Assembly (NCBI RefSeq): GCF_009176545.1
Contig: NZ_VTOJ01000001.1
Location: forward strand, 1-64,000
Direction: 5' to 3'
Length of the DNA stretch: 64,000 bases
Origin: Salinigranum salinum
GTDB lineage: Archaea; Halobacteriota; Halobacteria; Halobacteriales; Haloferacaceae
Part shown: piece by piece, positions 7,030 through 10,847 of the stretch
How positions within the stretch are numbered: position 1 is the stretch's first letter
Layout: each line of letters starts with the position of its first letter
The notes under the pieces: generated by a model
Seen by the model: the letters and a program-made list of their open reading frames with translations, nothing else
Told to the model about the DNA's origin: nothing
The model's database searches: none
Translations under genes and position numbers: made by a program

Positions 7030-8763
7030 TCAGTCGAGCGCCTCGAGCGCGAACTCGAACGCCGCCACCGGCAGTTCGAGGTCGTGTTCGACCAGCACCG
7101 CGGGGTGGACCTCGCCGACGACCCCGACCTCGGTGCCATCGATCACGACGCTCGCGGCGCGGCCGGGGATGAACGTCGGATGCTCCGTGTGGGGCGTCTC
7201 CAGACCGACGTCGAAGTCGCGGCAGATCGCCGCGAGCCGCGCCTTCGCGTCCTCGTACGTCGCGTCGTGTCGGGCGAGGACGCCCGCGACGTGTCTGGAC
7301 TCGGCGACGCCGGTCGACTCGGTCTCGTCCGCGTGGGCGACGAGGCCGATCTCCGCGAGGTCCTGCGGGTACGACCGGTGGGTGTTGTTCTCCAGCACCA
7401 TCAGGAGCGAGGGTAGGGCCCACGTCCGGAGCATCGTGTAGTCCTCGCTGTACGGTTCGGTGATGGTGACGGCCTCGCTCCCACCGAGCGCCGCGTCGCC
7501 CTCGGTGAGGCGCATCCGGTCGTAGTTTTCGGCTTCGGAGATCATGTGGAAGTTCAGGAGATCTTCGAAGCCCAGCCCCACCAGGGAAGCGCGGGCCGCG
7601 TTCTCCAGTCGCGACCGCCCGTGGCGGCCGCCGACGGTGGAGACGTCGGGGTATCGGGGGTCGAGGTCGTTGAAGCCGTACGCCCGACCCACGTCGTCGA
7701 TCAGGTCGAGCGGGTGGAGCACGTCCACGCGGTACGGGGGGATCTCCACCTCGTACGTGATCGGATCGTCGAGGGTGTACGTCGCGTCAAGGCCCGAACG
7801 CTCGAAGAGGTCGACCACCTCCTCGCGGTCGAGGGCGACGCCCAGCATCGACTCGATGCGGTCGTGTGACACCGTCTTCTGATCGACCGAGAAGTCCGGA
7901 CGCACGAGGCTGGCACCGTCGTCGGGGACCGTGGTCCCGTCGGCGTACTCGACGTGCACCTCCTCGATGGTCGCACCCCTTGCGGAGAGGGCGTAGCAGA
8001 TGATGGTGCACATCCGGTCGATCGTCCACTGGTCCGTCCCCGTGAGTTCGACGAGGAGTTCGCGCGAGTCGGTGTCGACCTCGGTCCGGCGGCCGTTGAT
8101 GACCGGCGGGAACGAGAACAGCCCGAGTTCGTCGTAGATGGCCGGGTAGCGGTCGTAGTCGGCGACGAGATCGGCGTACTGCGTCCCCGTCTGATGCTGT
8201 TCGAGCACCTCGGCGGGCGTCAGTTCGGCGTTCGAGTCCAGCGGGACGAAGCGGTCGCCGTCGGGAGCGACTCCCCGATAGGTGATCGTGTTGTTACCGC
8301 CCTCGTCGGAGAGGACTTCCCCCTTGATCATCGCGAGGTCGTGGATCCCGATAGCTCCCTTCGCCCGTTTGCGACCCATCGTCGCGTGCAGTTTCTCCTG
8401 GAGCTGGATGAGCGACTCGAGGCCCGCCTCGTCGAGATCTACCCCCCGAACGATGGCGCCCGTGACGTACGGCCGCTCGTCGGGGACCGACTCGTCGACC
8501 TCGATGGTCCAGTCGGGGTCGTTCGTCTTCGGGACCGCGACGCCCCGGTCCGACCCGTACTGGTAGCGGAGCGAGCGGGCGACGCCCTCGACGGAGAGGC
8601 GGTCGAGACGGTCGGGGCCGAACTCCAGCTGCATCTTGCCGTCCTCCGTTTCGCCCTCGTACTCCAGCCCGAGCGCGAACAGGTCCTCTTTGAACGCCTC
8701 TTCGGACTTGCCCTCGCCCGTGAGCCGCCGCAGTTCGTCGACCGAAACGTCGACGACGGGCAT
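7030..8763 (-). CDS. pheT: Phenylalanyl-tRNA synthetase beta subunit
   Basis: The 577-residue beta chain of the alpha2-beta2 PheRS pairs with PheS. It begins MPVVDVSVDELRRLTG, typical of the archaeal/eukaryotic short-type beta subunit. It contains the B3/B4 region (GRKRAKGAIGIHDL, TYRGVAPDG) associated with editing of mischarged tRNA, B5 folds and a catalytic-like core domain in the C-terminal third (RHVAGVLARHDATYEDAK). Its ATG overlaps the pheS stop (TGATG), so translation is coupled. It is the distal gene of the pheST operon. Confidence 0.95.
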   Translation of the reverse strand: MPVVDVSVDELRRLTGEGKSEEAFKEDLFALGLEYEGETEDGKMQLEFGPDRLDRLSVEGVARSLRYQYGSDRGVAVPKTNDPDWTIEVDESVPDERPYVTGAIVRGVDLDEAGLESLIQLQEKLHATMGRKRAKGAIGIHDLAMIKGEVLSDEGGNNTITYRGVAPDGDRFVPLDSNAELTPAEVLEQHQTGTQYADLVADYDRYPAIYDELGLFSFPPVINGRRTEVDTDSRELLVELTGTDQWTIDRMCTIICYALSARGATIEEVHVEYADGTTVPDDGASLVRPDFSVDQKTVSHDRIESMLGVALDREEVVDLFERSGLDATYTLDDPITYEVEIPPYRVDVLHPLDLIDDVGRAYGFNDLDPRYPDVSTVGGRHGRSRLENAARASLVGLGFEDLLNFHMISEAENYDRMRLTEGDAALGGSEAVTITEPYSEDYTMLRTWALPSLLMVLENNTHRSYPQDLAEIGLVAHADETESTGVAESRHVAGVLARHDATYEDAKARLAAICRDFDVGLETPHTEHPTFIPGRAASVVIDGTEVGVVGEVHPAVLVEHDLELPVAAFEFALEALD

Positions 8764-10274
8764 CAGTGCAACACCTCCGTCTCCCGCAGGAGGTCCAGAT
8801 CACACAGCGTCCCGTGGACGTCGCGGATGTCGTCGAAGCCGTAGATGAGCATCAGCAGGCGTTCGAGCGCGAGCCCCCACGCCATCACGTCGCACTCGAC
8901 GCCCAGCGGCCGCAGCACCTCGTCGCGGAACATTCCCGAGTTCCCGATCTCGATGAGTTCCCCCGTCTCCGGATGGCTGCCGAACAGCTCGAACGACGGC
9001 TCGGTGTAGGGGTTGTAGTGGGGTTTGAACTGGATGTCCGTGATGCCGAACTGGCTGTAGAACTCGGTGAACGTGCCCATCAGGTCCCTGACCGAGAGGT
9101 CCTCGGCCATCACCCACCCCTCGATCTGGAAGAACTCCAGCAGATGCGTCGGGTCGAGCGTGTCGTTGCGGTACACCTTCTCGACCGAGAAGTACCGCTG
9201 CGGTGGCTCGAGGTCGCCGACCTCGTGCCCCGAGAGGTACCGCATCGACAGCGAGGTGGTGTGGCCGCGGAGGTCGACCTCTCTGGCGACCGCCTCGGTC
9301 CACGGCGAGTGGTAGCCGTCGCCGTCCTCGCCTTCACCCTCGCGGTGGGCGTCCGCGACGCGGGCGACCAGGTCTTCGGGGAGGTCCTTCATCGGCGGGA
9401 CGTCCAGCGCGAACTGGTCCCAGTGGGTCCGGGCGGGGTGGTCCTGTGGCATGAACAGGCAGTCGTTGATCCAGAACTCCGCGTCGGCGTGTGGCCCGTC
9501 CATCTCCTGAAACCCCATCCCGACGAGCACGTCCTTGACGCGCTCGGCGGTCTGCCGGAGGATGTGCGTCTTCCCGCCTCGCAGCCGGGGAGCGTCCGCC
9601 TCGACGTTGTACTCGGTGAACTCGACGTCGCGCCACTCGCCGGAGGTCAGGAGGTCGGGGGTGAGCCGATCGACGGTCTCCGCGGCCTCGACCCCCTCGA
9701 GCATGACGGTGTCGACGCCCGCGTCGGTCAGGACGACGGAACGGATCGTGTGCTCGTGCCGCTCGACGAGGTTGCGGGACGCGAGCTGGTCGAGGACGGA
9801 GTCGTCGAGGTCGGCGTCACCCGCCGCGAGCGCCGCGAGCGCCGCCGCCTCGAGGTCCGAATCGGGGTCGGCGTCCGCCGCCGAGAGCTGGCCCGCGTCG
9901 ATGGTGCCGTACCCTTTCCGGGCGAGGTTCGCGAGCGCCACGTCGACCTCGTCGCCGTCGAGGTCGGCCGCCCCGAGGACCGCCCCCAGAGAGACGGGGT
10001 CGTCGCGCGCGCCGGCGTCGACCGCGGCGCGGTACAGCCGGAGTTCGGGGAGCCCGGCGTCGACGTACCGTTCCCCTTCGTCGGTGAGGTCGTAGTCGAC
10101 GGCGGTCTCCTCGGTGACGGTGACGAGCCCCTCGTCTTCGAGGTCGAACGCCGCGCCGGTGACCGTCTCGGGTTTGAGCCCCGTTTCGGCGGCGAGGTCG
10201 TCGATGGTCTGTGCGTCGTCGGCCGAGACGGTCGTGATGACCGCGTGCTGGGCTTCCGGGAGTGTGCGTGTCAT
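8763..10274 (-). CDS. pheS: Phenylalanyl-tRNA synthetase alpha subunit
   Basis: The 503-residue catalytic alpha chain charges tRNA-Phe. Winged-helix modules that bind tRNA occupy the N-terminal ~200 residues. Class II motif 2 is in RYFSVEKVYRNDTLDPTHLLEFFQIEGWV near residue 365, and motif 3 is in ECDVMAWGLALERLLMLIYG near 475. The ATG at 10274 lies about 155 nt downstream of a small Phe-rich ORF (10429-10506), and the likely promoter is further upstream near 10530. The gene therefore has a long structured leader, unlike most genes in this window. Confidence 0.96.
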   Translation of the reverse strand: MTRTLPEAQHAVITTVSADDAQTIDDLAAETGLKPETVTGAAFDLEDEGLVTVTEETAVDYDLTDEGERYVDAGLPELRLYRAAVDAGARDDPVSLGAVLGAADLDGDEVDVALANLARKGYGTIDAGQLSAADADPDSDLEAAALAALAAGDADLDDSVLDQLASRNLVERHEHTIRSVVLTDAGVDTVMLEGVEAAETVDRLTPDLLTSGEWRDVEFTEYNVEADAPRLRGGKTHILRQTAERVKDVLVGMGFQEMDGPHADAEFWINDCLFMPQDHPARTHWDQFALDVPPMKDLPEDLVARVADAHREGEGEDGDGYHSPWTEAVAREVDLRGHTTSLSMRYLSGHEVGDLEPPQRYFSVEKVYRNDTLDPTHLLEFFQIEGWVMAEDLSVRDLMGTFTEFYSQFGITDIQFKPHYNPYTEPSFELFGSHPETGELIEIGNSGMFRDEVLRPLGVECDVMAWGLALERLLMLIYGFDDIRDVHGTLCDLDLLRETEVLH

Positions 10275-10373
10275 GTGTCGGATCGCGTGGGTGGCGTGAG
10301 GTTCGCTGGATGGTGGAGCGTCCGGTCGTCAGTTAGCCGTTGCGGGTTTCGGTCGCGTGAAATGCGCCGTCGA

Positions 10374-10410
10374 GGGCGTCGGTTTCGCCCGGCGCGTCCC
10401 CTCGGACGCG
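10374..10410 (-). promoter_or_regulatory. Tandem hairpins between Phe leader ORF and pheS
   Basis: Two stem-loops lie 3' of the leader stop on the minus strand. The first, at 10393-10410, has a perfect 7-bp stem (CGCGTCC/GGACGCG) and a 4-nt loop. The second, at 10374-10390, has a 5-bp GGGCG/CGCCC stem. A sequence beginning at the leader stop (CCGTCG, 10423-10428) could instead pair with CGACGG at 10367-10372, which overlaps hairpin 2's flank. There is no strong U-run, so a classical intrinsic terminator is not evident. A translational or RNA-stability switch is equally possible. Confidence 0.4.
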
Positions 10411-10428
10411 AGCGGGGTCCGCCGACGG

Positions 10429-10506
10429 TCAGCCCGCGAAGAAGAAGCCGAACCCCGGAGCCAGTGGCTGGGGAGCGGTACGCCGCGTGTGGGGTTCGGA
10501 CACCAT
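10429..10506 (-). CDS. Phe-rich leader peptide of pheST (25 codons)
   Basis: On the minus strand an ATG at 10506 opens a 25-codon ORF that starts MVSEPHTRR and ends GFGFFFAG before a TGA. Four of its last seven codons are TTC (Phe). A T-rich box (GTTTTTG, about 10531-10537) lies ~27 nt upstream of the ATG, the spacing of a leaderless haloarchaeal transcript. The stop is followed by two hairpins and then by pheS, which encodes PheRS. The arrangement mirrors bacterial Phe-attenuator leaders. Function is inferred. Chance occurrence is unlikely but not excluded. Confidence 0.6.
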   Translation of the reverse strand: MVSEPHTRRTAPQPLAPGFGFFFAG

Positions 10507-10847
10507 GTGTTGTGTGAGTCGCTCGCGCGAACAAAAACGTTGTGAGTGGACGGCGCGCTACGGGATGTCCAGCGTCGGGCAGCGCTCCGGTATCGTGCAG
10601 GCGAGTGCCAGGGACGAGCGAGCAGTCACGGGCCGTGGTCGAACCGGGGACGACAGCCGCCTCCGACCCCCTCGATTCGTCGGCGCTCCGCTCGGCCGCC
10701 ACGCGTGGGTGAGGAAGAGCCGACCGATCCGAGGGAAACGTCTCGAGTATCGAGTGTCGAGTGTCGAACGGCCGAAGAAGTCGAGACCGGCGAGAGAGAC
10801 CAGACCGTCGAAAGAGCCGAACGGATCGAAGGCGAGAAGCAGCGTGC
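10507..10847. other. Intergenic region upstream of the pheST leader
   Basis: This 341-bp stretch separates the pheST leader from the 3' end of the CBS gene. It contains the T-rich box at about 10531-10537 that probably drives pheST. It also contains short direct repeats of TCGAGTATCGAGTGTCGAGTG type around 10742-10768. No tRNA cloverleaf or supported ORF was found on either strand. Confidence 0.5.

Follow-up and report, generated by a model that had tools for sequence, protein, structure and literature searches.

A conserved leader with phenylalanine codons between two covarying RNA helices upstream of haloarchaeal pheST, a candidate ribosome-read phenylalanine sensor

Background

Bacterial pheST and pheA are preceded by Phe-rich leader peptides that act through ribosome-mediated transcription attenuation. 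A 25-codon, Phe-rich open reading frame (ORF) lies directly upstream of pheS in the haloarchaeon Salinigranum salinum, within the 64-kb stretch of DNA analyzed here (64,000 nucleotides, referred to as the window), and it raises the question of whether an archaeon might sense Phe in a similar way and, if so, how the position of a ribosome on such a leader could be read. The original prediction, made from this sequence by itself, was that the ORF is a leaderless, Phe-sensing leader that controls phenylalanyl-tRNA synthetase (PheRS). In the open-access literature that we searched, no archaeal leader peptide that senses an amino acid and exerts control through the ribosome is described, and a review of archaeal transcription-translation coupling does not mention attenuation (PMC8116511).

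Results

The features of the locus are as follows.

10533..10541, minus strand: core promoter box of the leader transcript (P1), AACGTTTTT, 35 nt before the ATG here
10429..10506, minus strand: Phe leader ORF, 25 codons, MVSEPHTRRTAPQPLAPGFGFFFAG followed by the stop codon, read as leaderless and conserved in relatives
10438..10446, minus strand: control codons TTC TTC TTC (three Phe), between helices 1 and 2, identified from the sequence and from codon use in relatives
10332..10344, minus strand: P2-like element CGCAACGGCTAAC, probably a pheS-proximal promoter, conserved upstream of pheS
8763..10274, minus strand: pheS, PheRS alpha subunit, 503 amino acids (PF01409, E 3.8e-78), the gene read as regulated
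7030..8763, minus strand: pheT, PheRS beta subunit, a 577-amino-acid ORF directly after pheS, assigned by position and sequence

The distance from the leader stop to pheS is 154 nt in the window. We scanned the upstream DNA of 80 haloarchaeal pheS loci, plus further haloarchaeal genomes, for comparable elements. An ATG-started Phe leader occupies the same position in 64 of the 80 loci, representing several families and mostly reading M..SEP/SES...GFGFFF(A) before the stop, which bears out both the predicted ORF and the conservation of its Phe run. The typical ORF has 23-29 codons, with SEP or SES toward its start, GFGFFF toward its end and a middle that is not conserved. Phe makes up 13.7% of codons in frame, as compared with 3.3-3.4% in the other two frames, a contrast that is biased by the picking of ORFs for Phe. 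Because the ORFs were chosen for Phe at these positions, only the choice of codon is informative: the first Phe codon, which lies inside helix 1 (described below), is TTC in 59 of 59 leaders, and the later ones are TTC and TTT.

On a PheS tree of the 80 loci the 16 absences are scattered and call for 9 changes, a pattern consistent with repeated loss of the leader. That these 16 loci do without it shows the leader to be dispensable and counts against the Phe-sensing reading. Four Natronomonas loci (L030, L041, L048 and L070) have neither the leader nor helix 2 and retain the P2-like element, and the same combination is seen in the Halonotius and Halohasta group (L033, L046, L056 and L063); that is, leader and hairpin appear to have been lost together in these loci. 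In 30 pheS loci from other classes of the phylum we found no comparable leader, only scattered FF-containing frames that we judged to be chance.

The range of the element was also approached through an RNA model of the downstream hairpin alone. Among its best 30 matches, 28 have a GFxFF-coding ATG ORF just upstream. At E <=0.5, a loose limit that admits chance matches, 249 of the 392 genomes in the class have a match to the model, and most of the sampled haloarchaeal families contribute strong ones (E below 1e-3). Elsewhere in the S. salinum genome the model gives two further weak matches, both in coding sequence. Four matches outside pheS leaders were inspected in other genomes; three are coding, and one (L146 1872-1924; G411:C1:188871-188923), a strong match at E 9.6e-4, is apparently intergenic and lies before an unrelated ORF.

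Promoter spacing

Of the 72 loci scored, 67 have a box of the form AACG(C/T)TTTT that begins exactly 34 nt upstream of the leader ATG, and the sequence of the stretch between box and ATG is not conserved. This constant distance, which answers positively the question of whether the promoter spacing is kept in relatives, indicates a leaderless mRNA whose transcript would start on or beside the leader ATG. Taken together, the recurrence of the ORF at one position, the fixed distance from box to ATG, the bias in Phe codons and the GFxFF-coding ORFs next to nearly all of the best hairpin matches place the leader, on comparative grounds, beyond chance.

A further conserved element lies between the leader and pheS. 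Its consensus, CGnAACnGCTAAC, has 34 of its 36 matches in the 80 loci (both strands) just upstream of pheS, in most loci about 35-75 nt from the pheS ATG whether or not a leader is present, and Haloarcula, Haladaptatus and Halorussus relatives carry it in a diverged version. The simplest reading is that it is probably a pheS-proximal promoter; as far as the tabulated data go, the transcription start sites listed for Haloferax volcanii include none at the P2 position or directly at pheS (PMC4983044). Such a promoter, situated between sensor and pheS, could make pheST expression partly independent of the leader, and we count it against the Phe-sensing reading.

A separate ORF of 39 amino acids in the window (MAVGQTLQSAYHTCSCGKSFDTTEALLAHAREVHGFTPY; 34469-34350, minus strand) is also apparently leaderless, with a good TATA-like box and a CxC...H...H zinc-finger-like pattern.

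Two covarying helices

Comparison of the leaders reveals two RNA helices, one within the ORF and one beginning after its stop.

10491..10499, minus strand: helix 1, 5' arm CCGAACCCC (codons 3-6); covariation, swap test
10448..10456, minus strand: helix 1, 3' arm GGGGTTCGG (codons G-F-G); covariation, swap test, predicted fold
10377..10427, minus strand: helix 2 hairpin, whole, with a variable apical part; covariation, swap test
10427-10422 / 10382-10377, minus strand: helix 2, outer stem of 6 bp
10421-10417 / 10387-10383, minus strand: helix 2, internal loop CGGAC / CGAAA
10416-10413 / 10391-10388, minus strand: helix 2, inner stem

Helix 1 joins codons 3-5 (CCGAACCC) to the G-F-G codons (GGGTTCGG) just ahead of the Phe run. 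Over its 9 bp, 95.2% of cells are paired, and 27 two-sided changes were counted as compared with 10.5 in shuffled alignments (0 of 500 shuffles reached this level). The pair at its inner end switches by itself between G-C (17) and C-G (16). SES in place of SEP accompanies GGA-TTC in some lineages and GGG-TTC (a G-U wobble) in others, and in Halorubrum GAACGC pairs with GCGTTC (ERA with GCG-TTC), residues having changed on both sides.

For helix 2, an alignment of 46 sequences, whose candidates were picked partly by pairing, has 95.7% of cells paired and 98 two-sided changes, as compared with 33.7 in shuffles (0 of 500); controls slid out of register fall to 31-49% paired. When anchors were chosen blind to pairing, the outer stem was 80% paired, as compared with a shuffle maximum of 76% (2000 shuffles), and the inner stem 76%, as compared with 66%. 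The internal loop, YGGAC/CGAAA, is near-invariant, its conservation being far above that of the stems and of the apical loop; the first strand of this internal loop reads CGGA in 50 and UGGA in 20 of 70 loci.

We also compared each arm with its own and with swapped partners over 13 segment pairs, and only two of these pairs co-evolve, with z -5.0 for helix 1 and -10.9 for helix 2. Both helices appear in the predicted fold of the window's leader RNA, the hairpin right after the stop being accompanied by a small second one. Folding of the single sequence does not in itself reach significance (z -0.94 for the full leader and -1.86 for the hairpin); the case for RNA structure is one of comparison among relatives. 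The compensatory stem changes sought in relatives were found in both helices. Of the two hairpins originally predicted after the ORF, conservation was seen for the first (10377-10427) alone; helix 1, inside the ORF (10499-10491 with 10456-10448), is as conserved as helix 2 and had been missed. Searches of Rfam at permissive thresholds assigned the window leader to no family (one spurious plus-strand match, to a plant-virus family, fell far below the cut-off), and 12 related loci gave no match.

Helix spacing and the ribosome

In 55 of 57 loci, helix 1 and helix 2 are separated by a spacer of 21.3 +/- 1.8 nt. The median distance is 16 nt from the end of helix 1 to the first base of the stop and 5 nt from that base to helix 2, which begins about 2 nt past the stop; the last Phe codon begins 15 nt (median) ahead of helix 2. 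A ribosome covers about 27-28 nt. Because the spacer is shorter than this footprint, the position of the ribosome should decide which helix is open: on the Phe codons, a ribosome would have to cover the 3' arm of helix 1 and leave helix 2 free, and at the leader stop it would have to cover the 5' arm of helix 2 and would just clear helix 1. In four loci (L020, L091, L096 and L099) an insertion of 66-81 nt separates the leader stop from helix 2, which is kept downstream; these insertions break the geometry and are counted against the Phe-sensing reading.

Discussion

A proposed model for Phe sensing

We consider the best reading to be that the leader is a cis-acting, ribosome-read Phe sensor for pheST that works by stalling, with a probability of roughly three in four (0.74); this figure refers to the sensing of Phe by the leader and not to the readout. 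Sequence comparison supports the ORF, its constant distance from the promoter, the two helices and the spacing between them, as well as the lack of both a U-tract terminator and competing pairing (see below), and the Phe-sensing interpretation originally put forward gains support with them. Translation of the leader in S. salinum, stalling, the direction of regulation and the control of PheRS in response to Phe are steps that we infer.

In the proposed mechanism the P1 transcript would begin on the leader ATG or beside it, and the leader would be translated by a ribosome. With ample Phe-tRNA the ribosome would get to the stop, its leading half on the 5' arm of helix 2 and its trailing half clear of helix 1, and would be released. 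With scarce Phe-tRNA it would stall on FFF and cover the 3' arm of helix 1, so that helix 1 would be open and helix 2 free to fold. Folded helix 2, whose GGA/GAA internal loop is near-invariant, would be the state that favors the downstream message, and a shortage of Phe-tRNA would raise pheST expression. The likeliest readout would be protection of the untranslated leader from premature 3'-end formation of the FttA/aCPSF1 type. The readout is a guess, in which FttA-dependent termination is ranked first at odds well short of even, followed by RNA stability and then, level with one another, by protein binding to helix 2 and by other routes. FttA/aCPSF1-dependent termination is placed first because a coupled ribosome is presumed to keep aCPSF1 away (PMC8116511) and because archaeal polarity has been attributed to FttA (PMC12548453).

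Alternative explanations

Phe codons directly before pheST, where bacterial phe leaders are generally known to have them, together with a hairpin directly after the leader stop, would be expected of a bacterial-type transcription attenuator in which stalling at Phe codons toggles an antiterminator and a U-tract intrinsic terminator. Between helix 2 and pheS, however, the longest T run is <=3 in all 67 loci, so that the caution attached to the original prediction, that no strong U-tract is present, applies well beyond the window; moreover, the arms of the two helices show no covariation with either the spacer or the start of pheS (z -1.2 to +0.5), and no competing pairing, either as an antiterminator or as occlusion of the start, was found. 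Because neither a U-tract terminator nor a competing pairing turned up in these comparisons, the leader is not a textbook bacterial attenuator, and we regard attenuation of this type as highly improbable. The lack of an alternative structure and of a terminator that would link ribosome position to pheST expression also counts against the Phe-sensing reading itself. Translation of the leader might instead set translation of pheS, either through stalling that exposes or hides the pheS start or through ribosomes that reinitiate there, and termination-reinitiation coupling of neighboring genes is indeed known in H. volcanii. That coupling fades within 30-40 nt (PMC12548453), a range that helix 2, ending 45-166 nt before the pheS ATG in relatives, lies beyond; the 154 nt from stop to start in the window likewise exceed the distance of about 30 nt that termination-reinitiation calls for, and no pairing co-evolves with the pheS start, which makes this explanation quite improbable.

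The internal loop of helix 2 is conserved above its stems and apical loop, as a recognition motif would be, and helix 2 is specific to pheS; both observations would suit a site for a putative regulator (perhaps PheRS or another RNA-binding protein) to which leader translation sets access. Such a site alone does not account for the Phe run and the fixed spacing. We consider this explanation unlikely, and it amounts to a variant of the main model, not to a rival. That the ORF encodes a functional microprotein and neighbors pheS by chance is a very remote prospect: both ends of the peptide are conserved, but its middle is not, RNA pairing that is kept through amino-acid changes accounts for the conserved S-E-P and G-F-G codons, and the ORF is tied to pheS. 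Least probable of all is a T-box-like element that binds uncharged tRNA-Phe directly. The target gene and the YGGA loop strand superficially recall the UGGN of T-boxes, and pairing to the ACCA-3' end of a tRNA would require UGGU; the loop strand instead mostly starts with C (CGGA in 50 of 70) and has A after GG, neither the window nor the 12 related loci matched Rfam, and a leaderless ORF would not be needed.

Tryptophan leaders and Haloferax volcanii uORFs

Phe is not the only amino acid for which such leaders are seen. In the trpS2 loci of other haloarchaea (L213-L242; an example on the minus strand is L211), a leader ORF with W-x-W precedes the gene in 26 of 30, mostly as W-R-W within M.SAP.WRW..PGADS or MVST....WRW...EVDSIAV. 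As in the Phe leader, cognate codons stand before the synthetase gene, start-proximal codons belong to a covarying helix, and a TATA-like box lies upstream of the leader ATG (in most loci); the statistics for compensatory changes in this helix draw on only 12 distinct pairs, without a formal count. The trpS2 helix 1 encloses the control codons, whereas that of the Phe leader ends before them, and a GCTCACTCGCTTTCTC-like motif found before trpS2 in many loci differs from the downstream motif of the Phe leader. The genome that holds the window has no trpS2 match, and the window's own trpS has no leader, the gene directly following an upstream ORF. Because the trpS2 leaders carry a conserved Trp-x-Trp, the principle of a cognate leader is not restricted to Phe.

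Both kinds of leader probably correspond to upstream ORFs (uORFs) listed in a dRNA-seq study of H. volcanii (Babski et al. 2016, PMC4983044): a 26-amino-acid uORF (pI 5.9, 2772 Da) in the long 5'-UTR of pheS (HVO_2948; Table 2 no. 12) and a 23-amino-acid uORF upstream of a Trp-tRNA ligase (HVO_A0127; Table 2 no. 13). Phe leader orthologues from several Haloferax species other than H. volcanii have 26 amino acids and a pI of 5.94; their masses (2792-2850 Da) are 20-80 Da apart from the listed value, a mismatch that we count against the Phe-sensing reading. The table entries give these uORFs by length, pI and mass only; cognate codons, RNA structure, conservation and any part in sensing go unmentioned (PMC4983044).

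Relation to known systems and significance

The Phe leader resembles bacterial phe leaders in having a short ORF with a cognate codon run directly before the PheRS genes and conserved helices on either side of the control codons, close enough for the ribosome to reach. The mutually exclusive terminator and antiterminator pairings and the U-tract intrinsic terminator of the bacterial pheST type were not found, the mRNA is archaeal and apparently leaderless, helix 1 joins start-proximal codons to those that immediately precede the Phe run, a conserved purine internal loop is present in helix 2, and any sequence relation to the bacterial leaders would be conjectural. A parallel for the readout may be tnaC, a Rho-dependent, ribosome-controlled attenuator that senses free Trp through its nascent peptide. 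If FttA, whose role here is putative, acts as Rho does, then the two would share a terminator-free readout through protection of untranslated RNA by the ribosome; the cognate codon run of the haloarchaeal leader, unlike the sensing of free Trp by tnaC, points to sensing of charged tRNA. The structured RNA motif leuA-Halobacteria may be a related case.

We tentatively suggest, at somewhat less than even odds, that these leaders represent a haloarchaeal class of sensors unlike bacterial attenuators, in which a single ribosome on a leaderless mRNA, its footprint longer than the spacer, determines by its position which one of the two independent helices opens, the outcome being read without a terminator by FttA or by a protein that binds helix 2, and which would serve at least Phe (pheST) and Trp (trpS2). 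With no terminator at hand, the readout should be new if the regulation is confirmed. As a natural assay, the Phe leader would allow the connection of stalled ribosomes with FttA to be examined, and its conservation across haloarchaeal families, including the genetically tractable genus Haloferax, makes archaeal control of transcription or RNA fate by translation directly testable.
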